This document shows, in pieces, positions 31,968 through 47,089 of a DNA stretch of 64,000 nucleotides. Both the position numbers and the translations under genes were made by a program. The notes below the pieces were generated by a model. It had not been told where the DNA came from, did no database searches, and was given only the letters and a program-made list of their open reading frames with translations. The DNA is from an uncultured Lachnospiraceae bacterium (GTDB lineage: Bacteria; Bacillota; Clostridia; Lachnospirales; Lachnospiraceae), in assembly GCA_947165025.1 (NCBI GenBank), contig CAMUYQ010000001.1:310001-374000 (forward strand), read 5' to 3'. Numbering within the stretch: position 1 is the stretch's first letter; the number at the start of each line of letters is the position of its first letter.

Positions 31968-32201
31968 TTATTTTACGGGCTTTGAGTACCTGAGATTTCC
32001 TCCGCAGGCACACTTTTCTCTCTTAGTGAACAGTTTTGCAGCCTCCCTGCCGCTCACTACCTTAGACTTTCCGCACTTTTCACATGTAACCTTGACTGCA
32101 GCGAACGCACGGGGATGTTCGTTAAATCTGCGTAATCCGCCCATTATCTCATCAAGTTCCTCATCGCTCATTTCCACAAATTTCATTTTCTCGTTATCCA
32201 T
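31968..32201 (-). CDS. double-glycine leader small protein with a CxxC...CxC zinc-ribbon core
   Basis: A 77-residue protein. The N-terminus is an export leader of the double-glycine type, EMSDEELDEIMGG, with cleavage expected after GG near residue 22. The mature part is basic and has CEKCG and KCACGG, four Cys that could bind zinc. AAAGGAGG lies 7 nt upstream of the ATG at 32201, which is preferred over one 21 nt earlier. Unlike the other leader proteins nearby, its upstream region lacks the 11-bp tandem TGTGAC repeats. No modification enzyme or C39 transporter is adjacent. It may be a secreted signalling or bacteriocin-like protein, or a ribosome-associated protein with a fortuitous GG. Confidence 0.7.
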   Translation of the reverse strand: MDNEKMKFVEMSDEELDEIMGGLRRFNEHPRAFAAVKVTCEKCGKSKVVSGREAAKLFTKREKCACGGNLRYSKPVK

Positions 32202-32814: not shown

Positions 32815-33048
32815 TTAAACCTGTTCTTTGATATATCCATGAGCATCGAGTATGTTCTCCTTCTTATTATCAGTTTCTTCGGTCAGTTCCGATACTGCTT
32901 CCTGCATGTCTTCATCACCATTATTTAATGATGACATTATCATAAGGCCTGCTATGATAATGATCAGTGCCAGTGCAAGCGCACCCACTATGCTGATCAG
33001 GACTATGGCACCCGTACTCAGTCCTTTTCCTTTATTGTTATCCTGCAT
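32815..33048 (-). CDS. single-pass membrane protein with acidic tail
   Basis: A 77-residue protein: basic N-terminus (QDNNKGKGLSTG), one transmembrane helix (AIVLISIVGALALALIIIIAGLMIM, about residues 14-39), and an acidic C-terminal tail. It would place the tail outside. GAGGTG is upstream, with a long gap of about 12 nt. Its promoter carries the tandem TGTGACA repeat shared with the leader peptide genes, so it probably belongs to the same regulon. Role unknown; immunity or accessory function is conceivable. Confidence 0.6.
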   Translation of the reverse strand: MQDNNKGKGLSTGAIVLISIVGALALALIIIIAGLMIMSSLNNGDEDMQEAVSELTEETDNKKENILDAHGYIKEQV

Positions 33049-33098: not shown

Positions 33099-33132
33099 AT
33101 TATATCCGGTATACTGTCACACTACTGTCACA
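33099..33132 (-). promoter_or_regulatory. tandem-repeat activator-type promoter A (membrane protein gene)
   Basis: On the minus strand TGTGACA (33132-33126), 4 nt, TGTGACA (33121-33115), 10 nt (ending CCGGA), then TATAAT (33104-33099). The half-sites repeat every 11 bp and take the place of a -35, as in PhoB/OmpR-type activator promoters. It begins just after the stop of the metallopeptidase gene and lies 51 nt upstream of the 33048 start. Confidence 0.75.
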
Positions 33133-33133
33133 C

Positions 33134-34066
33134 TCATATACCCGGACTGTTCCAGAGCCGGTCTATCGTCTCTTCAAGCATAACTGCAATATCAAACGGC
33201 GATGCTTTTTTTTCGTTATCGGTCATCTTTCTAAACTCATCAAATACAGGAATTATCCTTTTTGCGAGTTTTTCAAGCATATCCCGCTTTTCAGTCTCAT
33301 CATCCGTCGTCACGTAGTTTTCCAGACGTCCGCTGACATACCGGTCATCTTCGATTCCGAGAAATACCCTGGCCATTTTTTCATCAAAGTATCCGAGTGC
33401 GGCATAGATTCCTACAGCGTCCGCCACAAGCTCATCCCATACCTTGTCTATCTTATCATGATAAAGCCTCCGGCAAATGAAATGCGTACACTCGTGGTAT
33501 CGTCTGATCGTATAAGACAGTTTCAGCCATTCATCGGCGTTCATTCCCACACGATCGGCAGACACATTACTGTAAGGACCCGCAGACAATACTATGATCG
33601 CATCCCTGTAATTCTGCTTATCGGAAGTAAATCTGTCAAACTCCGAATCCCAGTCAGGCTCAATGTTTCCAAGACGCATTTGTTCCTCAATGAACTCATC
33701 ACGGTGATTTTCGATCTTTCTCCAGTTTATGACCCCGTCAAGAATCGATGCTCCCTGTGTTCTCGGTATCACGGCCTCGGTACACTTGTGAGCCATGATA
33801 CGCATAAATGTATCGAAATCCTCACGTTCATGGAGAGATACAACCATGACAGCGCCTGCAGGTGTATCATCATACTCCGCCGAATCAAGTTCATTCATCC
33901 GAAAATGCGACAGGGACTTTTCTTCGGGTTCCTCTCCGCATTCGACGACCGCACGGTACTTTGCCTCTCCGTCAGCGGAAGGCCTGATATAAAGCTGTCT
34001 GTATGTATCGGCCAGCATCTCATATACTGCCCGGCCGGTAACTTTCCTGTTATCAGTACAGTCCAT
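33134..34066 (-). CDS. HExxH metallopeptidase-like protein of unknown family
   Basis: A 310-residue soluble protein without a signal peptide. Residues 190-195 read YHECTH, an HExxH zinc motif (His191, Glu192, His195), and 17 residues on comes DELVADAVGI (Glu212, Asp216), the position of the third zinc ligand in gluzincin-like folds. I recognise no named family. The gene starts 14 nt inside the end of the S41 peptidase gene, so the two are coupled. With the leader peptide gene upstream in the same operon it may process or monitor the peptides, but this is inference. Promoter A begins right after its stop. Confidence 0.7.
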   Translation of the reverse strand: MDCTDNRKVTGRAVYEMLADTYRQLYIRPSADGEAKYRAVVECGEEPEEKSLSHFRMNELDSAEYDDTPAGAVMVVSLHEREDFDTFMRIMAHKCTEAVIPRTQGASILDGVINWRKIENHRDEFIEEQMRLGNIEPDWDSEFDRFTSDKQNYRDAIIVLSAGPYSNVSADRVGMNADEWLKLSYTIRRYHECTHFICRRLYHDKIDKVWDELVADAVGIYAALGYFDEKMARVFLGIEDDRYVSGRLENYVTTDDETEKRDMLEKLAKRIIPVFDEFRKMTDNEKKASPFDIAVMLEETIDRLWNSPGI

Positions 34067-35882
34067 TTATATACTCCGTAAGCGCTTTTCTGTCATAATA
34101 GTGGTCGTAATCCACGATCGCAAAGTCCACCGGAGCACCCTGATCAATATCGTAAAACGCTCCGTTCTTTAAAAAGCTCAGCCTGTTATAGCTTGAAATG
34201 CGTAGAAAACTGCCTGTAGCCGTTGACAAAAACATCGAGGAACATGAGCCGCCGCCGGACTGCTTACCGATGATAGTGGCTTTTCCGGAGTTCTTGAGAT
34301 AGCACGGAACAAGGTTACCGCACGAAAAACTTGCCGGGGATGTAAGGCAGAAAAGTTTCATTCCTCTTCCTTCAAGGGTATCGCTTTCATCAAATTTATG
34401 ATCAAGATTTGTGTCGGCATAGAACACACTTGTCTCCCTTGCCCCCGTTGCAGTGTTTTCGACACTTATCTGGGCTTTACCGATCAAAGCTGCAAGTGTA
34501 TATGCAGCGGTTATGGATACACCTCCGACATTCTGCGACATATCCAGAACAACATTTTTGACGGGACTGTCATCCCTCAGTATACGGCCCACAGAATAAC
34601 TGATCAGGCCGATCGTATCGGGTGCATCTTCCGTCGGAGATTCTTTGTAATAATCCATCGTCGCATCTTCATATGAATCAAATGTGATATACGCCGTATT
34701 GCCTATCTCCTCATATCCCGGAACACCGTCAGGATAATATTTTGATCTTACATCCGACAGTTCAGCGCGCAATGCGTTCATTTCATTTCTGGCAATGCCC
34801 TCTCCTATATCCTTTCCGAAATCCTTGGCGGCATCCTTTCCGGCCAGATATGAAGGTGTACCGTACTTGCTGTGTTTATCATCAAGATATCTGCAGATGA
34901 TCTCATAATATGCTTTATCCATCGCTACCGCGTCGGTACCTGTCAGGATCTCCTTGTAACCGCTGTTGGAAGCAAGCGAATCAAAACTCTCTATACCGTG
35001 AATCTGCTTTAATCCGTAAAGCTGGTCAAAGGCAAAGCAGAACTCATTATATGAAAACTTGGCAAGTTCCTTATCCACCATGTTGGTCGCTTCGGCCGAA
35101 TAGTATGACTCACCGAGCGGGGTAAGTCCGGATTTGGTGCTTCCGAGATATCCTCCCGCAACAATATAAACGTTTTCACCGTTAAACAGTGTATTTATAT
35201 TTCTCGCTGCAAACAGTATGTCGGATACCGTCTGAAGCGGGATAAAGTATTTGTCATCAATCCTTACAAGATCAATACCATACCTGCCCGGCTCCATTAT
35301 GAGCTCACGTCCGAACATTGTATTTGTCTCGTCTCCCCTTCTGACAAAGTATTCCACGCCGTCTTTGTCCTTGACTCCCGAATTAGCTGCCGGATCCAGG
35401 ATCGTTTCCTCTCCGGCACGAAGGAAAGCATTATAATCAAGAAAATCGAATGTATCGTTCTCAAAATCAATCGTCATATAATAGCCGTCTTCACGTGTAA
35501 GTTTGGCCTTGTCACCATCGGTCTCAACGCTCAGTTCATATCGTTTCCCGTCACCGGTGTTACTGCCGACGAAATAATATGTCACGTTCCGAACAGTCTC
35601 TGCGATGTCATTTATCTCCATATAAGGGACAGGACCGCCGTTAATGAAATAGAGCGAAATATTGTCGGACATATCCATTGAACCGATATATACGGGGAAA
35701 ACCTTCTCTTCAAGAGATGTTTTCTTTTCAGGACTCTCTTCTGATTTTTCCGTTTTATCCTCAGTCATCTCTTCCTTCGGCTCGGCTGCCTTTGAAGGAT
35801 CTGCCGAAACATTGACGCGGCATCCTGCAAGGGACGTGATAAGTATCGCAGCCGTCATGATCATCGTAAATGTTTTTCTCAT
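34053..35882 (-). CDS. S41-family peptidase lipoprotein
   Basis: A 609-residue lipoprotein (lipobox SLAGC, Cys21) with a charged linker (about 30-60) and two copper-amine-oxidase-N-like beta regions (VYIGSMDMSDNISLYFINGGPVPYMEI; IDDKYFIPLQTVSDIL). The C-terminal half resembles tail-specific S41 peptidases: NTAYITFDSY, VKNVVLDMSQNVGGVSITAAYTLAALIG, and the nucleophile region TSPASFSCGNLVPCYLKNSGKATIIGKQSGGG. The usual catalytic Ser in SFSCGN is present. The ATG has AAGGAG 6 nt upstream. It lies downstream of a leader-peptide gene and is coupled to the metallopeptidase-like gene. It acts outside the membrane. Confidence 0.85.
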   Translation of the reverse strand: MRKTFTMIMTAAILITSLAGCRVNVSADPSKAAEPKEEMTEDKTEKSEESPEKKTSLEEKVFPVYIGSMDMSDNISLYFINGGPVPYMEINDIAETVRNVTYYFVGSNTGDGKRYELSVETDGDKAKLTREDGYYMTIDFENDTFDFLDYNAFLRAGEETILDPAANSGVKDKDGVEYFVRRGDETNTMFGRELIMEPGRYGIDLVRIDDKYFIPLQTVSDILFAARNINTLFNGENVYIVAGGYLGSTKSGLTPLGESYYSAEATNMVDKELAKFSYNEFCFAFDQLYGLKQIHGIESFDSLASNSGYKEILTGTDAVAMDKAYYEIICRYLDDKHSKYGTPSYLAGKDAAKDFGKDIGEGIARNEMNALRAELSDVRSKYYPDGVPGYEEIGNTAYITFDSYEDATMDYYKESPTEDAPDTIGLISYSVGRILRDDSPVKNVVLDMSQNVGGVSITAAYTLAALIGKAQISVENTATGARETSVFYADTNLDHKFDESDTLEGRGMKLFCLTSPASFSCGNLVPCYLKNSGKATIIGKQSGGGSCSSMFLSTATGSFLRISSYNRLSFLKNGAFYDIDQGAPVDFAIVDYDHYYDRKALTEYINGLY

Positions 35883-35910
35883 ATGTCTCTCCTTTTTGAA
35901 CTATATACTA

Positions 35911-35950
35911 AAATGCGAGAGGGTCCGGTTCATGGATCCTCTCTGCATTT
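35911..35950 (-). terminator. weak terminator/attenuator between leader peptide gene and S41 peptidase
   Basis: On the minus strand AAATGC, one bulged base and GAGAGG (35950-35938) pair with CCTCTCGCATTT (35922-35911) around a 15-nt loop. Only a short T-stretch follows (TTTTAG). It could let most transcripts stop after the peptide gene and some read into the peptidase genes, giving peptide in excess. Confidence 0.55.
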
Positions 35951-35972
35951 ACAACCAAACACTTTTGAGCGC

Positions 35973-36311
35973 TTATCTCTTCTTTTGAAGTATACGGCCT
36001 TCCGGATTAAAGTATCCGTTCCTTGCCTCAAAGAAATACCGTTTAGCCCCCGGGCAGAAGTATGTGGGGAATATCGTTCCACTCTTACTCTGGAATCCAC
36101 CCCGGACCTTCTGGACGCCTGCATGATACTTGCGGTGATACGGGCAGTATGTGTTGACAACAATATCAATTACGAAACCGAAGTTTCCTCCGCCGACTAT
36201 CTCCTCAAGCTCTTCGTCCGACAACCTGGGGTCATCAGATTTGGTTACTGCTTCCACCTCAAGTGTCTCATCATCATTGATCTCATTCATCTCATTAATA
36301 TTTTCGCTCAT
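35973..36311 (-). CDS. double-glycine leader small protein
   Basis: A 112-residue protein. A long acidic leader ends in DPRLSDEELEEIVGGG, with cleavage expected after the double glycine near residue 41. The mature part (about 70 residues) is basic and aromatic, with two Cys-Pro pairs (NTYCPYHRKYH and TYFCPGAKRYFF). AAAGGAGG lies 7 nt before the ATG at 36311, chosen over an earlier in-frame ATG. Promoter B with the tandem TGTGACG repeat is upstream; the S41 and metallopeptidase genes follow downstream. No RiPP-modifying enzyme is in the window. Confidence 0.75.
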   Translation of the reverse strand: MSENINEMNEINDDETLEVEAVTKSDDPRLSDEELEEIVGGGNFGFVIDIVVNTYCPYHRKYHAGVQKVRGGFQSKSGTIFPTYFCPGAKRYFFEARNGYFNPEGRILQKKR

Positions 36312-36366
36312 TGTTATTCCTCCTTTAGGATCCCGCAGAAGCGGTGGCTTCATGTCTGATGATGTC

Positions 36367-36400
36367 ATTATATCCGATCTATCGTCACAGAACCGTCACA
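36367..36400 (-). promoter_or_regulatory. tandem-repeat activator-type promoter B (leader peptide-S41-metallopeptidase operon)
   Basis: On the minus strand TGTGACG (36400-36394), 4 nt, TGTGACG (36389-36383), 10 nt (ending TCGGA), TATAAT (36372-36367). The geometry is identical to sites at 33099, 41675 and 42128. The start codon is 55 nt downstream of the -10. Confidence 0.78.
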
Positions 36401-36513
36401 CGCTTAATCCCATCATCCAAATACACACTTCAGATAAATTTACCTCCGCAGCTGCATCCGGTATACCTCACACAAAATATGCATAATCCGATTATAAACA
36501 AACACCGCACAAC

Positions 36514-37221
36514 TTACAAGAAATACAGCAATGAAATCTCATCTGAAGAAAGAGGGCGAAAATCACCCGGATCAAGTGTTTCGTCAAGAACAAGTCCCCC
36601 CATCGATATCCGCTTTAAATAGGTGACGCCGGCACCGAATGCCTGAAACATTCTCTTGATCTGGTGAAACCTGCCCTCTCTTATCGTCACGTAATATGCG
36701 TTCTTCTCTTGGTCTGTGATCTTTTCAATCTTTGCAGGCAATGTTTTCTTTGCGTCCCCTATATCAACGCCCTCTTCGAATATCCTCATATCTTCGTCAT
36801 TAAGCAAACGGTTGGTCTCGACATAATACTTCTTGTCAACATGCCGTTTCGGAGACAGAAGTTCATGAGCCAGCTTTCCGTCATTCGTGATCAGAAGAAG
36901 TCCCTCCGTATCCTTATCAAGACGCCCTACCGGGAACAGATCTTTTTTATTTACCCCTTCAAACAGATCAAGGACCGTGGCGCAGCCGGTATCCTCGGTC
37001 GCACTCACAATCCCCTGTGGTTTGTTCAGCATGTAATACCTGAACTTCTCATATCTGATGATCTGTCCGTCAAAACATATTTCATCGGAAGCTTCGTCAA
37101 TATGTACCGATGGGTCGGCAAGCGTCTTACCGTTGACACTTACCCTGCCGGATCTGACGATCTTTTTTGCCTCACTTCTAGAACAGATGCTGTTTTTTAC
37201 AAGAAACCGGTCTATCCTCAT
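36514..37221 (-). CDS. RsuA-family rRNA pseudouridine synthase
   Basis: A 235-residue pseudouridine synthase. An S4 RNA-binding domain at residues 2-48 (IDRFLVKNSICSRSEAKKIVRSGRV) precedes the RsuA/RluB/E/F catalytic domain with the invariant Asp in GRLDKDTEGLLL (near residue 102) and REGRFHQIKRMF. It most resembles RsuA (16S rRNA U516), but RluB/E/F cannot be excluded. A second paralogue is at 57953-58660. It is 9 nt downstream of an HD hydrolase gene. Confidence 0.92.
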   Translation of the reverse strand: MRIDRFLVKNSICSRSEAKKIVRSGRVSVNGKTLADPSVHIDEASDEICFDGQIIRYEKFRYYMLNKPQGIVSATEDTGCATVLDLFEGVNKKDLFPVGRLDKDTEGLLLITNDGKLAHELLSPKRHVDKKYYVETNRLLNDEDMRIFEEGVDIGDAKKTLPAKIEKITDQEKNAYYVTIREGRFHQIKRMFQAFGAGVTYLKRISMGGLVLDETLDPGDFRPLSSDEISLLYFL

Positions 37222-37230
37222 ATCTCGCCT

Positions 37231-37884
37231 TCAGCGCACCTCTGTCACACTTTTTTCAGTGACTTTTCTATCCTTTTTTATCCATCCTTTGCTCATACCG
37301 TTTTCGATATTTTTCTCTATCCATTTATAAACCCTTGGCATGTAACGGCGCACCGGATCTTCGCGATTTTCGATCATCCCACGTGTTGCGTTTCCGAGCA
37401 CCCATGTATGGCCGTCGGTAAGAGTATTGTGAAGAAGCGGCTGGAGGCGGTCCATGCATGCGGCATACCTGGCGTCATCCGTCTCCATCGCGTCAAACTC
37501 TTCCCAGTAATCACGGAGCATTTTCCCCTGGACGGCGGGTAGCTGTCCGAACAACTTATCGGCAGCGGCCTTCTCTCTCTCCTCCTTGTCTTCATTGCCC
37601 TTTGCATCAAATGCAAACGTATCTCCGGCATATATCTCGACAAGATCATGAACGACACACATGCATACGGCGCGGCCTATATCCACCTTGGTGTAAAAAT
37701 ATTCATCAAACATCATCGCCATGACGGCTATATGCCACGAATGTTCGGCATCATTCTCGCGACGGCTCTTGTCGATAAGCACCGTGCGCCTGAGAACCGC
37801 TGTCATCTTATCTATCTCAGCCGTAAACAGCAGAAGTTTATCAAGCTTCGCGTCACCCGATGAAACAAAATCATTTATTCCCAT
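37231..37884 (-). CDS. HD-domain hydrolase (5'-nucleotidase-like)
   Basis: A 217-residue HD-superfamily phosphohydrolase. The metal ligands are visible as DAEHSWH, CVVHDLVEIYAGD and CMDRLQPLLHN, the pattern of YfbR/HDDC2-type 5'-deoxynucleotidases. It is soluble and of family length. The C-terminal tail is very basic. It stands just upstream of the RsuA-family gene. The exact nucleotide substrate cannot be told from sequence. Confidence 0.88.
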   Translation of the reverse strand: MGINDFVSSGDAKLDKLLLFTAEIDKMTAVLRRTVLIDKSRRENDAEHSWHIAVMAMMFDEYFYTKVDIGRAVCMCVVHDLVEIYAGDTFAFDAKGNEDKEEREKAAADKLFGQLPAVQGKMLRDYWEEFDAMETDDARYAACMDRLQPLLHNTLTDGHTWVLGNATRGMIENREDPVRRYMPRVYKWIEKNIENGMSKGWIKKDRKVTEKSVTEVR

Positions 37885-37948
37885 TTACGTCTCCTGTTTT
37901 ACCTGTTTTAACGGTTTTGTGTCCCATTATGGCCTGTGCGTCAACCTC

Positions 37949-39076
37949 CTACGCAAACCTTGATCTCAGATATACGGTCATGCGAACCATGATCTCAGTA
38001 AGTACCATACAGATCAGCATCAGGATCAGACAAGAGCCGGGGGTAAATCCGGCATAACCATGAAACCCGAAAGCAACGAGGTACACGATAAGGTGAAGTG
38101 CGTAATACAGGGTGATATAACGGCTGTAGTACATGATCTGTGAAGATATAAGGCCCTGCTCTATACTTCCGATGGCATGATTTTTACGCTTGTTTATCAG
38201 TAAAAATATTATTGCCGCAAACAGCATTATATGTGCGAGAGACGCAGCAACATGCCAGATGTCCGGGCAGGAATATGCATAATCCACTATCCCGGTAAAC
38301 AGGGAAATATCTGTCAGGTATTCACTTTCATCCGGGGTAAGGCGAAGCCTTATGATGACGCTTACCCACCATATGGCAATGACGGCCACACTTACAGGTA
38401 TCATGCGCTTATAGAACTTAACTTTATCTTTAATCCTCCGATAACAACGCCCGACTGCAACACCAATAAGTGCATAAGGCAGGAAATATAACGGAGTAAA
38501 TGCCACATACGGTGCACCACCGATAAGAAGAGTGACTATATATCCGATCACCGGAATATCTATGGTTGTTTCATATACCTGCGGAGCCGCAACGGATATC
38601 ACAACCGCAAGTATGAGATACCCGAAGACAGGGACTTGGATTTTTCTCAAAAGTGCCAGAACAAGATAGATGATCCCGGTAATGAAGAAAATATTGATAA
38701 ACTGCGCATATATCTTTACCATAACCGAAAAAGCCTCGGCCCCACCGGAAGTCAGGCTGCTTTTTACATACGGATACGGGATAAGAAGAGCAAGTACATA
38801 GGCCAGGTTACACAAATACTGATAAACGATCATCCGGATGCCTCTTTTTGTCAGTAAAAATGGTGTCATGCGGCTGTCATACACGCTTCCGAACCCGACA
38901 ATGAAAATATAGATAGCAGCTCCGGACATCGTGGCAAAAATGTAAATACATGACACAATAGGACTCATATCAGAATGCGTAGCCTGAAATGCATGCGCAA
39001 GAAAAATAAAAGGCATAAATATGCCCTTTAAATAGTCAAATTCAATCTGCCTTCCTGTGTTGTACTCTTTCATCAT
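37949..39076 (-). CDS. multi-pass membrane protein, acyltransferase-3-like
   Basis: A 375-residue protein with about ten hydrophobic helices. The N-terminus RQIEFDYLKGIFMPFIFLAHAFQ resembles acyltransferase-3/OafA-type proteins (R-x10-H pattern). Charged loops between helices and a C-terminal pair of helices also fit. The family usually O-acylates surface glycans, but the match is weak and a different membrane family is possible. The ribosome binding site is poor (GAGTGA). It begins 34 nt after the GuaA-like gene. Confidence 0.6.
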   Translation of the reverse strand: MMKEYNTGRQIEFDYLKGIFMPFIFLAHAFQATHSDMSPIVSCIYIFATMSGAAIYIFIVGFGSVYDSRMTPFLLTKRGIRMIVYQYLCNLAYVLALLIPYPYVKSSLTSGGAEAFSVMVKIYAQFINIFFITGIIYLVLALLRKIQVPVFGYLILAVVISVAAPQVYETTIDIPVIGYIVTLLIGGAPYVAFTPLYFLPYALIGVAVGRCYRRIKDKVKFYKRMIPVSVAVIAIWWVSVIIRLRLTPDESEYLTDISLFTGIVDYAYSCPDIWHVAASLAHIMLFAAIIFLLINKRKNHAIGSIEQGLISSQIMYYSRYITLYYALHLIVYLVAFGFHGYAGFTPGSCLILMLICMVLTEIMVRMTVYLRSRFA

Positions 39077-39110
39077 TCAGTATCACTCACAACTTTTATC
39101 TTTCTGTTTT

Positions 39111-40094
39111 TTATTCGTACTCAACCGTTGCGGGAGGCTTAGGCGTATAATCAAAAAGAACACGATTGATACCCGGAACTTCCGCTATGATCCTCTTTAC
39201 GAGGTGATCGATAAGTTCATCGGAAAGATGCTCCACGGTTACCTCCATAACATCAGTGGTATTGATCGCACGAATGATGCACGGCCAGTCAAAAGTTCTC
39301 TTTCCGTCCCTGACACCGGTCGATTTGAAATCCGGAACAACGGTAAAATACTGCCATACTTTTCCTTCGAGACCGTTTTTAGCAAATTCTTCGCGAAGGA
39401 TCGCATCGGATTCACGCACTGCCTCAAGCCTGTCTCTTGTAATGGCACCGGGGCAGCGGACTCCAAGTCCGGGGCCGGGGAATGGCTGACGGTATACCAT
39501 ATTTGCAGGAAGTCCGAGACGCTCACCTACTATACGGACTTCATCTTTAAAAAGGATCTTAACAGGCTCAACAAGTTCAAACTTCATATCCTCGGGAAGT
39601 CCGCCCGCATTGTGATGAGCCTTGATCCCTGCTTCACTCTCAAGAATATCCGGCCAGATTGTTCCCTGTGCAAGAAATTCTATGCCATCAAGCTTACGGG
39701 CTTCCTCTGCAAACACATCAATAAACTCTCCGCCTATGATCTTACGCTTTGTCTCGGGATCAGCAACTCCCTCAAGCTTATTAAGGAATCTATCCGTTGC
39801 ATCCACATAGATAAGATTAGCCTTCATCTGGTTACGGAACACTTCGATAACCTGTTCGGGTTCGCCCTTCCTGAGCAGTCCATGATTAACATGCACGCAT
39901 ACAAGCCTGTCTCCGATCGCTTTGATGAGCATTGCCGCCACAACAGAAGAATCAACTCCTCCTGAAAGTGCGAGCAAGACTTTCTTATCACCGATCTGCT
40001 CCCTGAGTGCCTTCAGCTGCTCTTCGATAAAAGCATCTGCAAGTTCGGGTGTGGTGATCCTTACCATGTCGTCCGGTCTTCTTTCGTATACCAT
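39111..40094 (-). CDS. GMP synthase ATP-pyrophosphatase half without glutaminase domain
   Basis: A 327-residue protein equivalent to the C-terminal two thirds of GuaA: the P-loop [15 protein letters not shown] (about residues 41-54), the XMP-binding segment [12 protein letters not shown], and the dimerisation domain ending INRVLFDYTPKPPATVEYE. The class I glutaminase (GATase) domain is absent; the start at 40094 has CGGAG 7 nt upstream and reads MVYERRPDD. Archaea have such a split ATPase subunit with a separate glutaminase. Here a complete guaA sits 5.5 kb away and no glutaminase gene is adjacent, so it may use free ammonia or act on another substrate. Confidence 0.88.
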   Translation of the reverse strand: MVYERRPDDMVRITTPELADAFIEEQLKALREQIGDKKVLLALSGGVDSSVVAAMLIKAIGDRLVCVHVNHGLLRKGEPEQVIEVFRNQMKANLIYVDATDRFLNKLEGVADPETKRKIIGGEFIDVFAEEARKLDGIEFLAQGTIWPDILESEAGIKAHHNAGGLPEDMKFELVEPVKILFKDEVRIVGERLGLPANMVYRQPFPGPGLGVRCPGAITRDRLEAVRESDAILREEFAKNGLEGKVWQYFTVVPDFKSTGVRDGKRTFDWPCIIRAINTTDVMEVTVEHLSDELIDHLVKRIIAEVPGINRVLFDYTPKPPATVEYE

Positions 40095-40223
40095 GTCATT
40101 TCTCCGTTTCTGTTTTATTTTTTATTTATTCTAATTCAATGCTATATCTTCACCTACTATAGTTGTTGTTAATTATATCATATTCCCCGGACTATTTCCC
40201 TTAGGGGTTCTGTATGTACTGAG

Positions 40224-40721
40224 TTATAATTCACATACCATGATGAATTCCTCATCATTCTCATCGACTGTCTCAAAGCCGACCTTCTCATACATCCTGA
40301 CGGCGTAGTTGGCTTTCTGGACCGCAAGGGATGCCTTCGTATATCTCTGTTTTTTTAACACATCCAGCATTCTGATCATCAGCTGTGTGCCGATACCCTT
40401 TCCTCTGTGATCCTTATAAAGTGATATGGCAAACGAAGGGGTTTCATCATCAACATGACCGTAATCATTCATTATACGTGTCCATACTGCCCCGATAACC
40501 TTTCCGTCGATCTCTGCAACAAGAGCATTATCTCCACGGCGACTTCCGAAATCATCCGTATACACCCTCAGTTCCGGTTTTTCGATAATATTCCTGTCAG
40601 GCGGCTCTACACCTTCCGGGATAAATATCGCTTCATACAGAAAATCCTTCAGCAGATCCTCTTCTCCTGTTTTCGGTTTTCTGATGGTATATCCTGTTTC
40701 TTCTTTTTCGATCCGACTCAT
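40224..40721 (-). CDS. GNAT-family N-acetyltransferase
   Basis: A 165-residue acetyltransferase with the acetyl-CoA binding motif A YKDHRGKGIGTQLMIRML (about residues 105-122) and the motif B region NYAVRMYEKVGFETV. It is soluble, with AAGGTAA upstream of the ATG. The acceptor substrate is unknown. It is monocistronic by spacing. Confidence 0.88.
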   Translation of the reverse strand: MSRIEKEETGYTIRKPKTGEEDLLKDFLYEAIFIPEGVEPPDRNIIEKPELRVYTDDFGSRRGDNALVAEIDGKVIGAVWTRIMNDYGHVDDETPSFAISLYKDHRGKGIGTQLMIRMLDVLKKQRYTKASLAVQKANYAVRMYEKVGFETVDENDEEFIMVCEL

Positions 40722-40785
40722 TGTTGTGTATTACCTTCTTTTCCAAATACTTATCTGTTCTCTTTTTAAATCAAAAAATGAACCA

Positions 40786-40989
40786 CTACCCCCGTTCCTT
40801 CCTGTATAACCTCGCGAGAAAAAACGATACGATTATGAGCACAGCTCCATATGCGTACATGATCGGATATGTGAATACGAATCCGAGAAGTTCGCAAAGA
40901 ACAAAGTCTGTAAACCCTATAATACACCAATGGATCACATCCAATACGTATATGCCTGTATATATGGCGGCACAAGCGCACCTATTCAT
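40786..40989 (-). CDS. small two-helix membrane protein
   Basis: A 67-residue protein with two hydrophobic segments (CACAAIYTGIYVLDVIHWCIIGF and YAYGAVLIIVSFFLARL) and a basic end (RLYRKERG). Its start overlaps the preceding small gene by 8 nt with GAGG directly abutting the ATG, so expression would rely on coupling. I do not recognise it. An overlapping frame at 40766-40981 is less hydrophobic and Arg-rich and is taken as a shadow. Confidence 0.5.
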   Translation of the reverse strand: MNRCACAAIYTGIYVLDVIHWCIIGFTDFVLCELLGFVFTYPIMYAYGAVLIIVSFFLARLYRKERG

Positions 40990-41197
40990 CCTCGGTAAAG
41001 AGATATTCTTCTATATTACAGACATTACCTTCGTCGTCGTACCATCCTTGCGCGCAGTCCCAATACCTTCCTTCAGAAAAGAGGATCTGATAACCGTCGG
41101 TACGGCCTGCCCTTACGAGAACCGCTACAAACCACATTGCACAGGCAAAGAAAAACAATAAGTGTAATAATGTTCTGCTTACGTTTTTTTTCTCCAT
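40982..41197 (-). CDS. small membrane-anchored protein
   Basis: A 71-residue protein with an N-terminal transmembrane segment (TLLHLLFFFACAMWFVAVLV) and an acidic, aromatic tail (ILFSEGRYWDCAQGWYDDEGNVCNIEEYL). GAGAG is 5 nt before the ATG at 41197. It overlaps the next small gene, and together they sit just downstream of the terminator of a leader-peptide gene. A two-gene immunity or accessory cassette is a possibility, without direct support. Confidence 0.5.
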   Translation of the reverse strand: MEKKNVSRTLLHLLFFFACAMWFVAVLVRAGRTDGYQILFSEGRYWDCAQGWYDDEGNVCNIEEYLFTEDE

Positions 41198-41263
41198 CAA
41201 GTCTCTCATCGGTCGATACCAAAAAACTATTTAATTATACGGTATTATCAGCCCCTTCGCCAT

Positions 41264-41299
41264 AAAAAATCCCCCAAGAGCAGAATTCTTGGAGGATTT
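41264..41299 (-). terminator. intrinsic terminator of leader-peptide gene 1
   Basis: On the minus strand AAATCCTCCAAGA (41299-41287) pairs with TCTTGGGGGATTT (41279-41267) around a 7-nt loop, followed by T residues to 41264. It lies 12 nt after the stop of the gene at 41312. Confidence 0.9.
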
Positions 41300-41311
41300 T
41301 GCATTTTTTCA

Positions 41312-41590
41312 TCATTTCGATATTTGGAAAGCTCTATATCTGTCAGCGCCACCGGGCTCCTGTAAAGCCCTTTGCATTCTCCTATGGACTCCTTCCGAAC
41401 TATAAGGTCCGGACGTCACACCTGTTTTCAAATCCCTGATATACCATCCATTTTTATGTATAGTCTTATCAAATCCGGAACCCAGCTCTTCCATAACACC
41501 CATGGTATCCATAACATCGTCAATTATCGTTCCGCCATCCACCTCTTCCAACTCTTCATTTCTTAACGCCTTTTTTTCTGATTCTGACAT
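41312..41590 (-). CDS. double-glycine leader small protein, paralogue 1
   Basis: A 92-residue protein with leader MSESEKKALRNEELEEVDGG (cleavage expected after residue 20). The mature part begins TIIDDVMDTMGVMEELG and ends in a GYF_2-like stretch (GWYIRDLKTGVTSGPYSSEGV). AAAGGAG lies 8 nt before the ATG at 41590; an ATG six bases earlier is too close. It is a tandem duplicate of the gene at 41759 with near-identical 5' half and control region. It is controlled by tandem-repeat promoter C and ends at a strong terminator. Confidence 0.78.
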   Translation of the reverse strand: MSESEKKALRNEELEEVDGGTIIDDVMDTMGVMEELGSGFDKTIHKNGWYIRDLKTGVTSGPYSSEGVHRRMQRALQEPGGADRYRAFQISK

Positions 41591-41674
41591 GAACATCTCT
41601 CCTTTTCTTTCAGTATCCCGACACTGGTCTCTGTTCTTTTGAGCTAACTTCATCAGAACTATATTACATTACTG

Positions 41675-41708
41675 ATTCTAAAACATCAACTGTCACAGAA
41701 GCGTCACA
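41675..41708 (-). promoter_or_regulatory. tandem-repeat activator-type promoter C (paralogue 1)
   Basis: On the minus strand TGTGACG (41708-41702), 4 nt, TGTGACA (41697-41691), 10 nt, TAGAAT (41680-41675). The geometry matches sites A, B and D. The start codon is 84 nt downstream of the -10. Confidence 0.78.
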
Positions 41709-41713
41709 TATGT

Positions 41714-41742
41714 TTGTCATGGGGTAATTCCTCTTATATAAT
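41714..41742 (+). promoter_or_regulatory. outward plus-strand promoter in repeat copy 1 (antisense to paralogue 2)
   Basis: TTGTCA at 41714-41719, a 17-bp spacer, and TATAAT at 41737-41742. In copy 2 the same promoter faces the cysteine peptidase gene; here it points into the 3' end of the leader-peptide gene at 41759, so it would make antisense RNA. It is probably a by-product of the duplication. Confidence 0.55.
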
Positions 41743-41758
41743 ACAGCATGATCAAATT

Positions 41759-42043
41759 TCAACTCTTCTTTTTATACACAACTTTAAATTTCCCGCCCAT
41801 GCCCTTCAACACTTTCACTCTCTTATGGGCTTCATTATTACTAAAAGGTCCGGTCAACTGACCTGTTTCCAGATTCTTGATATAACATGCCCCTTCACCG
41901 AATGATGCACCTACAGACATATCAAGTCCGGCACCCATCTCTTCCATAACATCCATGGTATCCATAACATCGTCAATTATCGTTCCGCCATTCACATCTT
42001 CCAGCTCTTCGTTACTTAAAGCCTTTTTTTCTGATTCTGACAT
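41759..42043 (-). CDS. double-glycine leader small protein, paralogue 2
   Basis: A 94-residue protein with leader MSESEKKALSNEELEDVNGG (cleavage after residue 20). The mature part begins TIIDDVMDTMDVMEEMGAG and has a GYF_2-like stretch (ACYIKNLETGQLTGPFSNNEAHKRV) and a Lys-rich end. The start at 42043 has AAAGGAG 8 nt upstream. It shares leader, first mature helix and promoter with paralogue 1 but differs in the C-terminal half, suggesting diversification of the exported part. Confidence 0.78.
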   Translation of the reverse strand: MSESEKKALSNEELEDVNGGTIIDDVMDTMDVMEEMGAGLDMSVGASFGEGACYIKNLETGQLTGPFSNNEAHKRVKVLKGMGGKFKVVYKKKS

Positions 42044-42127
42044 GAGCATCTCTCCTTTTCTTTCAGTATCCCGACACTGGTTTCTGTTCTTTTGAGTTAA
42101 CTTCATTAGAACTATATTACATTACTG

Positions 42128-42161
42128 ATTCTAAAGCATCAACTGTCACAGAAGCGTCACA
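42128..42161 (-). promoter_or_regulatory. tandem-repeat activator-type promoter D (paralogue 2)
   Basis: On the minus strand TGTGACG (42161-42155), 4 nt, TGTGACA (42150-42144), 10 nt, TAGAAT (42133-42128). A third, looser TGTCAC lies at 42168-42173 inside the -35 of the divergent plus-strand promoter, so one protein could act on both directions. Confidence 0.78.
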
Positions 42162-44260: not shown

Positions 44261-45139
44261 TCATTTCCCTTCTTGACCATCGCTTTTGTCATTTATAGTT
44301 TCAATGAGTCCGGTAACCAAATCTTGCAATTGAGCTGCGTTTTTATTCGTGATCACCGGTTTTCCGGTTCTCTTTTCCACCGCCAATCGTGCTTCACCTG
44401 CCGCTTCTCCGCCTTCAATCGCAACCATTCGATTTTCCTCAAAGGACTCCGGTTGTTTTTCCCTGGAGATTTCTGTGGTGGTAGCCTCAGCCAACATATT
44501 AAGGACCAGCTCCAGCGTTGACATGTTATCCCTGAGGTTTTCCTTTTTTAAACCTTTATGATTCTTATATTGCCGCGTTGTCATCCCGGACCAGGCTTTC
44601 GTAATCTCATCTGTCAGGATTGCATATTCAACACCTTTCCTTACGCCACGCTTTTCCCATTCATCTGTAAGTTCTTTTCTTACCTGAATTGCCTGCAGTC
44701 GCTGATTGATCCATTCTCTGGAATAACCTTTCTTAGCGTAGGTTTCAAGAGCCCTCTCGATAGTCAATTCCGGATCTATTACTTCTTCAATCCGCTCGCG
44801 CCCAACCTGAGCCAGCCACATTTTAAAGGGTTCGGCTTTCTTTGATGGAATCGACTGGATAATTCGAAGCAGTTGCTCTGTGTTGGCAACATCTGTCATT
44901 CTCTTTTTTCCATCCTGCGCTGTCATTTTCAACTGGTGACAATTTGTCACCAGTTGACTTCCCTCTTCTTTTAGTCTCTGTTTCAGTTTGTTCCAATACT
45001 TTCTAGCTTTTTCGTAATCAATTTGCTCCGTAAGAGTTCCAACAACATCCACAACCGAAAAATACCATTCTTCCTCATCCTCTACCCATGCTGTCCTTAT
45101 CGGCCGGTCTTCAAATAACTGAACTTTATCATTTGCCAT
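44261..45139 (-). CDS. BRO/DinD-family protein
   Basis: A 292-residue protein with an N-terminal BRO-N-like domain (VQLFEDRPIRTAWVEDEEEWYFSVVDVVGTLT, KMWLAQVGRERIEEVIDP). A helical C-terminal half of the type found in DNA-damage-inducible protein D (RKGVEYAILTDEITKAWSGMTTRQYKNHKGL) follows. Such proteins occur in phage and mobile DNA and bind nucleic acid. The ATG at 45139 is preferred to one two codons earlier. It overlaps the upstream XRE gene by 11 nt, so the two form an operon. It is probably an accessory gene pair. Confidence 0.85.
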   Translation of the reverse strand: MANDKVQLFEDRPIRTAWVEDEEEWYFSVVDVVGTLTEQIDYEKARKYWNKLKQRLKEEGSQLVTNCHQLKMTAQDGKKRMTDVANTEQLLRIIQSIPSKKAEPFKMWLAQVGRERIEEVIDPELTIERALETYAKKGYSREWINQRLQAIQVRKELTDEWEKRGVRKGVEYAILTDEITKAWSGMTTRQYKNHKGLKKENLRDNMSTLELVLNMLAEATTTEISREKQPESFEENRMVAIEGGEAAGEARLAVEKRTGKPVITNKNAAQLQDLVTGLIETINDKSDGQEGK

Positions 45140-45359
45140 CTGCATGTTTCCCCCTTATAGATTCTTCATCTTTTATTTGCGCGTTTTCCTCAAGCAGCAT
45201 AATATACGCCATCATTCTGACCAAATATTCCGGAGGGGCGCTTATTCCCTGTTCCCACTGCTGAAGAGTTCTTACAGGAATTCCAAATTTAGCGGAAAAT
45301 TTACTTTGCGATAATCCCGTTTTCTTTCGTAACTCCTTTATTTTTTCTGAAATATCCAT
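45129..45359 (-). CDS. XRE-family transcriptional regulator
   Basis: A 76-residue helix-turn-helix protein: ISEKIKELRKKTGLSQSKFSAKFGIPVRTLQQWEQG covers the HTH, and the rest (APPEYLVRMMAYIMLLEE) a short dimerisation helix. The ATG at 45359 with GGAG 8 nt upstream is preferred to the longer frame, which would run through the operator. It probably represses its own operon by binding the palindrome at 45411-45431. It forms a pair with the BRO/DinD gene. Confidence 0.88.
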   Translation of the reverse strand: MDISEKIKELRKKTGLSQSKFSAKFGIPVRTLQQWEQGISAPPEYLVRMMAYIMLLEENAQIKDEESIRGKHADGK

Positions 45360-45547: not shown

Positions 45548-47089
45548 TTATTCCAGCTCTATCGTGCCGGGGGGTTTGCTTGTCAGATCGAACATTACGC
45601 GATTGACACCCTTCACTTCGTTTATGATACGGCGCATGCATATCTGCTGGACTTCGAACGGAATATTGCAGCATTCCGCAGTCATGAAATCTGTCGTATT
45701 CACTGCGCGCAGAACAACGGCATAATCATATGTCCTGAAGTCTCCCATGACACCGACCGATCGCAGATTTGACAGAGCCGCAAAGTACTGGCCGGGCCGC
45801 TCTTCAAGCACTGCCTTATCAAGTTCCTCCCTAAAGATCGCATCCGCTTCCTGGACGATCTTAACCTTCTCTGAAGTAACTTCGCCCACTATCCTGACAC
45901 CGAGTCCCGGACCCGGGAAAGGCTGTCTGTTAACAAGATGATCGGGCAGTCCGAGCTTTGATCCCGCACGTCTTACCTCATCCTTAAAGAGCATCCTCAG
46001 CGGTTCTACTATCTCCTTGAAATCAACGCAGTCCGGGAGCCCACCGACGTTATGGTGCGATTTTATAACAGCGGATTTACCGAGTCCCGATTCGATCACA
46101 TCCGGGTAGATAGTCCCCTGAACTAGAAAATCAACCGCTCCAATCTTCTTTGCCTGTTCCTCAAACACACGGATGAACTCTTCCCCTATTATCTTACGCT
46201 TCTTCTCAGGCTCCTCGACACCCTTGAGCTTATCGTAAAACCTGTCCGCGGCATTGACCCTTATGAAGTTAAGATCATAGTTTCCCAAAGGCCCGAATAT
46301 TGCTTCGACCTGATCTCCCTCGTCCTTCCTTAAGAGACCGTGATCTACAAAAACGCATGTCAGGTTCTTGCCTATCGCTTTGCTCATAAGGACTGCAGCA
46401 ACGGATGAATCAACTCCTCCGGAAAGTGCGCAGAGAGCCTTGCCGTCTCCGACCTTTTCCTTTATCAGCCGTATCTGCTCATCCACGAAAGAATCCATCT
46501 TCCAGTCGCCTTTGCATCCGCATATCGTATATACAAAATTGGAAATTATCTTCCTGCCCTCGCGTGTATGCGTGACCTCGGGATGAAACTGTGTCGCGTA
46601 AAGCCTTCTGTCATCATCCTCCATCGCAGCAACCGGACACACGGGTGAATGTCCCGTAACGGTAAATCCTTCAGGTGCCTTGGCAATATAATCGGTATGA
46701 CTCATCCAAACATCGGTGTTCTCATCAATACCGTGAAAAAGCCTGCTTGAAGTGTTGATCGTAACTTTAGTCCGCCCGTATTCGGATACGGGTGCGGTCG
46801 CAACTTCTCCGTCAAGCATGTATGCCATAAGCTGCGAGCCGTAACATATTCCGAGAACTGGAATTCCAATTTCAAGTATAGCCTTATCATAGTGCGGTGA
46901 AGTCTCAAGATAAACGCTGTTCGGTCCACCCGTAAAAATGATACCCTTGGGGGCCATTTCCGTGATCTTATCAAGTGTGATCGTATACGGGTGTACTTCC
47001 GCATACACATTACATTCCCTTACGCATCTTGCGATAAGCTGATTGTATTGTCCTCCGAAATCAAGGACGAGTATCATCTCGTTTTTCAT
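45548..47089 (-). CDS. guaA: GMP synthase (glutamine-hydrolysing), full length
   Basis: A 513-residue bifunctional enzyme converting XMP, ATP and glutamine to GMP. The class I glutaminase domain has the nucleophile in GICYGSQ (Cys82) and the His/Glu pair in TQFHPEVTH. The ATP-pyrophosphatase has [14 protein letters not shown] near residue 223, and the XMP loop [13 protein letters not shown] and dimer domain end [14 protein letters not shown]. The ATG at 47089 has AAGGCGGTG upstream and avoids an N-terminal extension. A second GuaA-like ATPase without glutaminase is at 39111-40094. Confidence 0.96.

Follow-up and report, generated by a model that had tools for sequence, protein, structure and literature searches.

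Four promoters in the window analysed here, a 64-kb stretch of DNA from an uncultured Lachnospiraceae bacterium, carry the same 34-bp element: two direct TGTGAC repeats followed at a fixed distance by a -10 box. These four sites belong to a real genome-wide regulon of about 20 promoters, most of which precede small genes for peptides with a double-glycine (GG) leader. The most likely reader of the boxes, judged from sequence comparisons, is P0002, a response regulator with a predicted OmpR/PhoB fold that is encoded outside the window (G000:C6:75781-76596, where G000 is the window's own genome) in an operon behind the gene for a partner protein, P0006. A P0002-driven, activator-dependent regulon is the best overall explanation of the data and a probable one. 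About twenty scattered small genes in a relative of rumen Butyrivibrio are thereby brought together as one proposed co-regulated set.

Tandem-repeat boxes in the window and in the genome

The pattern TGTGACR-N4-TGTGACR-N10-TANAAT, scanned over the whole window, matches without a single mismatch at four sites on the minus strand. An earlier note on this DNA had described these sites as four promoters of identical 34-bp tandem-repeat architecture, two of them duplicates of each other, and both parts of that description hold, because the units at 41675 and 42128 are a duplicated gene together with its promoter.

33099..33132, minus strand: box and promoter with repeats at 33127-33132 and 33116-33121 and -10 TATAAT at 33099-33104; exact match, one of the 20 sites of the genome
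36367..36400, minus strand: box and promoter with repeats at 36395-36400 and 36384-36389 and -10 TATAAT at 36367-36372; exact match
41675..41708, minus strand: box and promoter with repeats at 41703-41708 and 41692-41697 and -10 TAGAAT at 41675-41680; exact match
42128..42161, minus strand: box and promoter with repeats at 42156-42161 and 42145-42150 and -10 TAGAAT at 42128-42133; exact match, duplicate of the 41675 unit

When up to three mismatches are allowed, the window contains no box beyond these four; shuffled sequences give a mean of 0.03 sites, and four sites are reached in 0 of 100 shuffles. The repeat pair alone, at up to two mismatches, is found 8 times in the window against 4.81 expected, which is not above chance, so that the signal in the window rests on the four exact pairs. 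Applied to all 20 contigs of the genome (2.70 Mb), the full pattern gives 20 sites at up to two mismatches and the reversed pattern none.

Exact TGTGAC pairs with gaps of 0-30 nt number 20 in the genome, and 16 of them have a gap of exactly 5 nt (N5); the reversed control gives three pairs. When the -10 box is left out of the pattern, the 11-nt offset still gives the best or joint best match to TATAAT in 11 of 16 exact boxes. Position 9, a column left free in the search, is T at 19 of the 20 genomic sites, position 7 is a purine at all 20, and half of them (10/20) have an extended -10 (TGn). Random placement over the genome, which the earlier note had named as an argument against its own proposal, is not what is seen: 20 sites stand against none in the control, and GG-leader genes are enriched behind them, as described below.

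In relatives, the second half-site is often TATGAC at the sites of G009, G032 and G035, and both half-sites are TGTGAT at several sites of G026. These differences suggest box drift between species. Immediately after the box, the boxed genes of L008, L012 and L013 have a common 5' leader that contains AAAAGGAACCGGAC and, further on, a CCGG ahead of the start; L020 has part of this leader. An unusually good fold just after the box is found only at L016, whose leader differs from that of L008, L012 and L013.

Genes behind the boxes

The genes behind the four window sites, together with the remaining GG-leader gene of the window, are the following.

32815..33048, minus strand: single-pass membrane protein of 77 amino acids behind the 33099 site; no Pfam match over the cut-off
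35973..36311, minus strand: GG-leader peptide of 112 amino acids behind the 36367 site, leader end ...LEEIVGG; bacteriocin models match below the cut-off only
34053..35882, minus strand: S41-family peptidase (PF03572, E 4e-11) in the operon of the 36367 site, with a lipoprotein-like signal by eye
33134..34066, minus strand: DUF7005 protein (PF22541, E 4e-56) in the operon of the 36367 site, with an HExxH-like HECTH motif by eye
41312..41590, minus strand: GG-leader peptide of 92 amino acids behind the 41675 site, leader end ...LEEVDGG
41759..42043, minus strand: GG-leader peptide of 94 amino acids behind the 42128 site, leader end ...LEDVNGG
31968..32201, minus strand: remaining GG-leader gene of the window (the fourth), unboxed, for comparison

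The sites precede three of the four double-glycine leader genes in the window (those at 35973, 41312 and 41759), one of which leads the operon with the S41 peptidase, and the fourth site precedes the membrane protein gene, just as the earlier note had read them.

The bias towards small leader-peptide genes extends to the whole genome. Translation of the downstream DNA reveals a small GG-leader open reading frame (ORF) within about 26-122 nt of 16 of the 20 sites, whereas such a leader is present in only 4 of the 57 genes predicted in the window, and a GG ORF lies within 330 bp of 37 of 2000 random window positions. Under the window rate, the 13 GG genes at the 16 sites outside the window correspond to a p of about 5e-13. 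The enrichment that the earlier note had asked about is therefore present. The regulon also includes Sec-secreted proteins. Among the four sites without a GG-leader gene, which include the 33099 site and its membrane protein, those at C2:385693 and C8:90285 precede proteins with a Sec signal, the product at C8:90285 having a bacterial Ig-like domain, and no obvious gene was found close to the site at C8:16951.

In relatives, 81 of 110 listed sites were examined (69 of the 79 from genomes that have a close P0002 ortholog and 12 of the 31 from elsewhere), the omitted ones being mostly presumed chance matches. By regular expression (regex), GG genes stand behind 41 of the 69 sites in ortholog-bearing genomes and behind 3 of the 12 elsewhere. 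At least seven of the 37 examined non-GG sites precede, by eye, members of the two Sec-protein families of the window's own genome (G001:C2, G019:C20, G026:C22, G027:C10, G031:C15; G001:C50, G008:C4), and the remaining ones precede further secreted proteins or no clear gene.

The encoded peptides are diverse. A set of 61, one of which is the product of the unboxed window gene, contains cross-genome core families of 9, 7, 6 and 4 members, four pairs and many singletons, and the cores are large, with a median of 62 residues. Six GG peptides were scanned against bacteriocin models, and none matches one over the cut-off. One boxed peptide of a GG family (L237, G001:C3:77861) has a leader with NGA in place of GG, which is probably a diverged cleavage site.

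P0002 as the candidate regulator

The earlier note had seen no OmpR-type regulator in the window, and no OmpR-type DNA-binding domain match was found there. At E up to 0.05, five proteins of the whole genome match an OmpR-like DNA-binding domain: three ordinary response regulators (P0003, P0004 and P0005), a SARP-like protein with a BTAD domain (P0001) and P0002. The receiver of P0002 is clear by sequence (Response_reg, E 2.9e-17) and is also found in 62 of 62 aligned members of its group. The winged helix is weak by sequence (Trans_reg_C, E 0.028, below the cut-off; 17 of the 62 members at E<=0.01), and the Pfam scan of P0002 gives no BTAD domain and no LytTR at E<=1. A structure model of the P0002 group based on 62 sequences (pLDDT 88, pTM 0.54) has OmpR/PhoB regulators as its best full-length fold matches (DrrB, E 3.9e-11); a second structural aligner returns mainly receiver matches and barely tests the DNA-binding part. 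On this model, P0002 is predicted to combine a receiver with an OmpR-type winged helix.

Two lines of evidence connect P0002 with the boxes. The first is co-occurrence in the genus. Close orthologs of P0002 (>=58% identity, one a fragment) are present in 13 of 37 genus genomes. These 13 genomes hold 100 sites (reversed control, 11). The remaining 24 have 31 (control, 12), a number that falls to 23 when G025 and G023 are set aside. Exact boxes occur in 8 of the 13 genomes with a close ortholog versus 2 of the 24 without (Fisher p 0.001). The second is position. In G025, a P0002 paralog has an exact box about 50 bp upstream, boxes with one or two mismatches adjoin P0002 paralogs in G036, G022, G035 and G013, and one-mismatch TGTGAT-type boxes lie 22 and 43 bp upstream of the P0006-P0002 operon at L279 and L277. 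A set of 80 named loci, the best 80 of 175 relatives, includes 75 with the P0006-P0002 pair; these 75 contain 35 boxes, 12 of them at most 150 bp from the operon (binomial p 9e-11), whereas the reversed pattern gives no box in the 80 loci. The search for a regulator beside the boxes that the earlier note had recommended thus leads in relatives, as at G025, L279 and L277, to an OmpR/PhoB-fold protein, and the PhoB/OmpR-type activator layout that it had proposed is supported by such a regulator both co-occurring with and adjoining the boxes.

Several observations weigh against P0002 as the reader. The rival regulator P0001 reaches the same Fisher p of 0.001, its close orthologs co-occurring with exact boxes in 7 of 10 genomes versus 3 of 27. 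Because the genomes share ancestry, both proteins obtain equal values, and co-occurrence alone does not separate P0002 from P0001. There is no box near P0002 in the window's own genome, so that possible autoregulation is seen in relatives only. G021 (78% complete) and G028 (59%) have a P0002 ortholog and no box at up to two mismatches, and the 43 genomes examined from outside the genus gave no exact box. A GG-regex ORF stands behind only 1 of the 35 boxes in the named loci, and that one is lipoprotein-like, so that the evidence for a peptide bias is confined to the window's genus.

It is unlikely that the boxes are read by an ordinary OmpR-type response regulator instead, namely P0003 on C5, P0004 on C3 or P0005 on C2. 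All three have clear OmpR DNA-binding domains (86-99 bits), and the box geometry is compatible with any of them. However, OmpR-type domain matches at E up to 0.05 number 3 to 12 in all 37 genus genomes, boxed or not, in a count taken over all such domains together. Furthermore, the 14-kb stretches around P0003 and P0004 contain no box, and on C2 the boxes at C2:406622 and C2:385693 are about 6 and 14 kb away from P0005, none being upstream of it.

P0001 (G000:C10:6675-7817) as the reader of a real regulon is somewhat more improbable still. This SARP-like protein has an OmpR-like domain plus a BTAD that scores above the cut-off, and SARP boxes, in the available part of PMC5930380, consist of heptamers with 4-nt spacers and an 11-bp period, which is the layout of the boxes described here. 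However, four genomes with close P0001 orthologs (78-83%) and no close P0002 (G004, G006, G011 and G023) have 0, 0, 1 and 1 boxes, whereas the six close-P0001 genomes that also have P0002 contain 4-21 (the lowest being G031, with 4 versus a control count of 3). G025, with its 7 boxes, gives no match to P0001, the 18-kb neighbourhood of P0001 contains no box, and the boxes in relatives adjoin P0002-type genes. The scarcity of boxes in P0001-only genomes, the boxes of G025 and the position beside P0002-type genes together separate P0002 from P0001.

The boxes are very improbably an ordinary promoter element or repressor operator copied along with the peptide genes, since the box with its constant -10 offset also stands on peptides with unrelated cores, secreted-protein genes and regulator operons of other genera and its repeats sit at the -35 position, even though the 41675 and 42128 units arose by recent duplication and further 5' sequence is common to some boxed promoters; a repressor role for the box-binding protein is likewise less likely.

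P0006 and the eroding receiver

P0002 is unusual for an OmpR-type regulator in three respects: the phospho-acceptor position is a Glu, no kinase gene is adjacent, and P0006 is its partner. The acceptor position is Glu53 and not Asp, and P0002 is therefore not classed as a canonical two-component regulator. Across 77 aligned regulators of the group, this position is Asp in 50, Glu in 9, Ser in 8, Gly in 4 and another residue or a gap in 6, and 32 of the 77 retain the complete acid-acid-Asp-Lys quartet. The P0002 group is thus a mixture of intact and eroded receivers.

Next to P0002 paralogs, a gene that by position and size encodes a membrane histidine kinase usually precedes the regulator; at the paralog locus L163, Pfam reports His_kinase at E 2.1e-22. 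Among the genes adjacent to P0002, there is no cognate histidine kinase gene, and P0006 stands in its place; a kinase encoded at a distance may still act on P0002. P0006 has about 170 residues, with a mean column identity of 74% over 12 genus members, and holds the position preceding the regulator in 12 of 13 genus orthologs, the thirteenth being a fragment. The predicted structure of P0006 has a pLDDT of 86.8 and a pTM of 0.84, and comparison of the predicted fold with the PDB found no match. Among the named loci, 76 of 80 have a near-full-length regulator, 75 of them directly in the expected P0006-P0002 order. These loci are from Butyrivibrio, Pseudobutyrivibrio and Lachnospiraceae, with a few metagenome-assembled genomes labelled Blautia, Eubacterium, Ruminococcus and others, and the pair is accordingly wider than one species, being found in Butyrivibrio, Pseudobutyrivibrio and other Lachnospiraceae.

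SpoIIE, STAS or RsbW-like genes are present in the fetched flanks of 32 of the 80 loci. In the window's own genome, a SpoIIE/STAS/RsbW-like set is found at C3:36561-39596, downstream of the C39 peptidase-containing ABC exporter (PCAT) on C3. A tentative scenario is that an OmpR-type branch gave up kinase control, that P0006 replaced the kinase gene and sets the state of the eroding receiver, perhaps relaying a partner-switching signal of the SpoIIE/STAS/RsbW kind, and that in one genus this branch was wired to exported mini-proteins used between cells.

Proposed mechanism and export

In the proposed mechanism, P0002 would bind as a tandem dimer to the two TGTGAC half-sites, which lie on the same face of the helix at a distance of 11 bp. 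The bound repeats would stand in for the -35 element and recruit RNA polymerase to the often extended -10, a step modelled by analogy on OmpR/PhoB and SARP activators. P0002 would in this way activate the small GG-leader peptide genes and some Sec-secreted protein genes. The signal probably reaches P0002 through P0006, because the receiver is losing its acceptor and no kinase gene stands beside P0002. The GG-leader peptides would presumably be cut and exported by a PCAT and act outside the cell.

The genome encodes two C39 exporters, recognised by their C39 domains, and 16 GG-leader genes behind boxes, the combination of GG leader and genomic C39 exporter expected of putative exported peptides. 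About 2 kb, including a gene on the opposite strand, separate the C3 exporter from a boxed peptide. An ORF of 73 amino acids at G000:C3:30873-31094 (L079:8874-9095), truncated just before the C3 PCAT, resembles the N-terminus of a HlyD-type exporter partner and has no Pfam match. The second C39 exporter (G000:C1:404573-415316, L080) is accompanied, by eye, by a HlyD-like protein and three NHLP/Nif11-type leader-like proteins, and the L080 stretch around it contains no box. A GG peptide comes after the regulator operon in both G026 and G031, and the opposite strand there encodes an ABC transporter (ABC_tran, E 3.4e-33 in L148). A P0002 paralog with 34% identity in G023 adjoins a C39/PCAT-type exporter (by eye) and a DUF7005 protein (L250:3965-4870; PF22541, E 1.5e-60), a relative of the product of the window gene at 33134-34066.

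Two or more CxxC pairs are present in 9 of the 61 peptides (L183, L184, L187, L189, L190, L216, L218, L227 and L239), the cores of which resemble small zinc ribbons; such zinc-ribbon-like cores would be an unusual cargo for exporters of this kind. The peptides of the output, presumed to be exported, and its surface proteins may be bacteriocins, signals or something else. Elsewhere in the window, a GMP-synthase-like protein is encoded in full at 45548-47089 and as a shorter copy at 39111-40094, with a BRO-like ORF at 44261-45145 between the two (by eye).

The box motif provides a handle for finding more exported peptides. In the available part of a 2025 review (PMC12632262), the control mechanisms of receivers without a phosphorylation site are called 'a mystery', and P0002-P0006 offers a concrete system for the control of such receivers. 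Because the second gene is almost always linked and the paralogs still keep their kinases, a stepwise test of kinase loss is possible.

Comparison with known systems

The Hungate1000 rumen bacteriocin survey (PMC13289728) includes ruminant Butyrivibrio and Pseudobutyrivibrio and lists GG-leader peptides; in its available part, the word 'promoter' is absent and no regulon is described. Searches of an open-access library, which misses most subscription papers, turned up no account of the regulon, P0006 or the box.

PhoB acts on pho boxes with tandem direct half-sites 11 bp apart that replace the -35 element. The system described here resembles the OmpR/PhoB family in the receiver and winged-helix fold predicted for P0002, the two direct half-sites, the 11-bp period and the replaced -35. 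In contrast, its half-site is TGTGAC, its acceptor is a Glu, a kinase gene adjacent to the regulator is absent, P0006 is the partner and the regulon consists of GG-leader genes. An eroded phosphorylation site, as in the P0002 group, is also a feature of the atypical or pseudo-receiver OmpR-type regulators CosR, ChxR, HP1043 and RitR, as far as the partly available accounts of them go, and CosR and RitR are among the fold matches of the P0002-group model. The P0002 group differs in that, within a single ortholog group, some members show erosion and others do not, and in that the regulator gene nearly always has a second gene linked to it. The SARP family (AfsR, PimR) has a similar box geometry in the available part of PMC5930380, with a heptamer plus 4 nt and an 11-bp period. 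P0002 differs from SARPs in that a receiver is present and BTAD is absent.

In lactic acid bacteria, regulators of the ComE/BlpR type control peptide-bacteriocin regulons. Like these, P0002 is a response regulator proposed to govern many scattered GG-leader genes, at some loci near an ABC/PCAT exporter. However, P0002 is not of the LytTR type (Response_reg with a weak Trans_reg_C), no peptide-sensing kinase is seen beside it, and the peptide cores are large, those scanned being without a bacteriocin match over the cut-off. The architecture is of a known kind, and what is unusual is the regulator-partner pair and the set of outputs.

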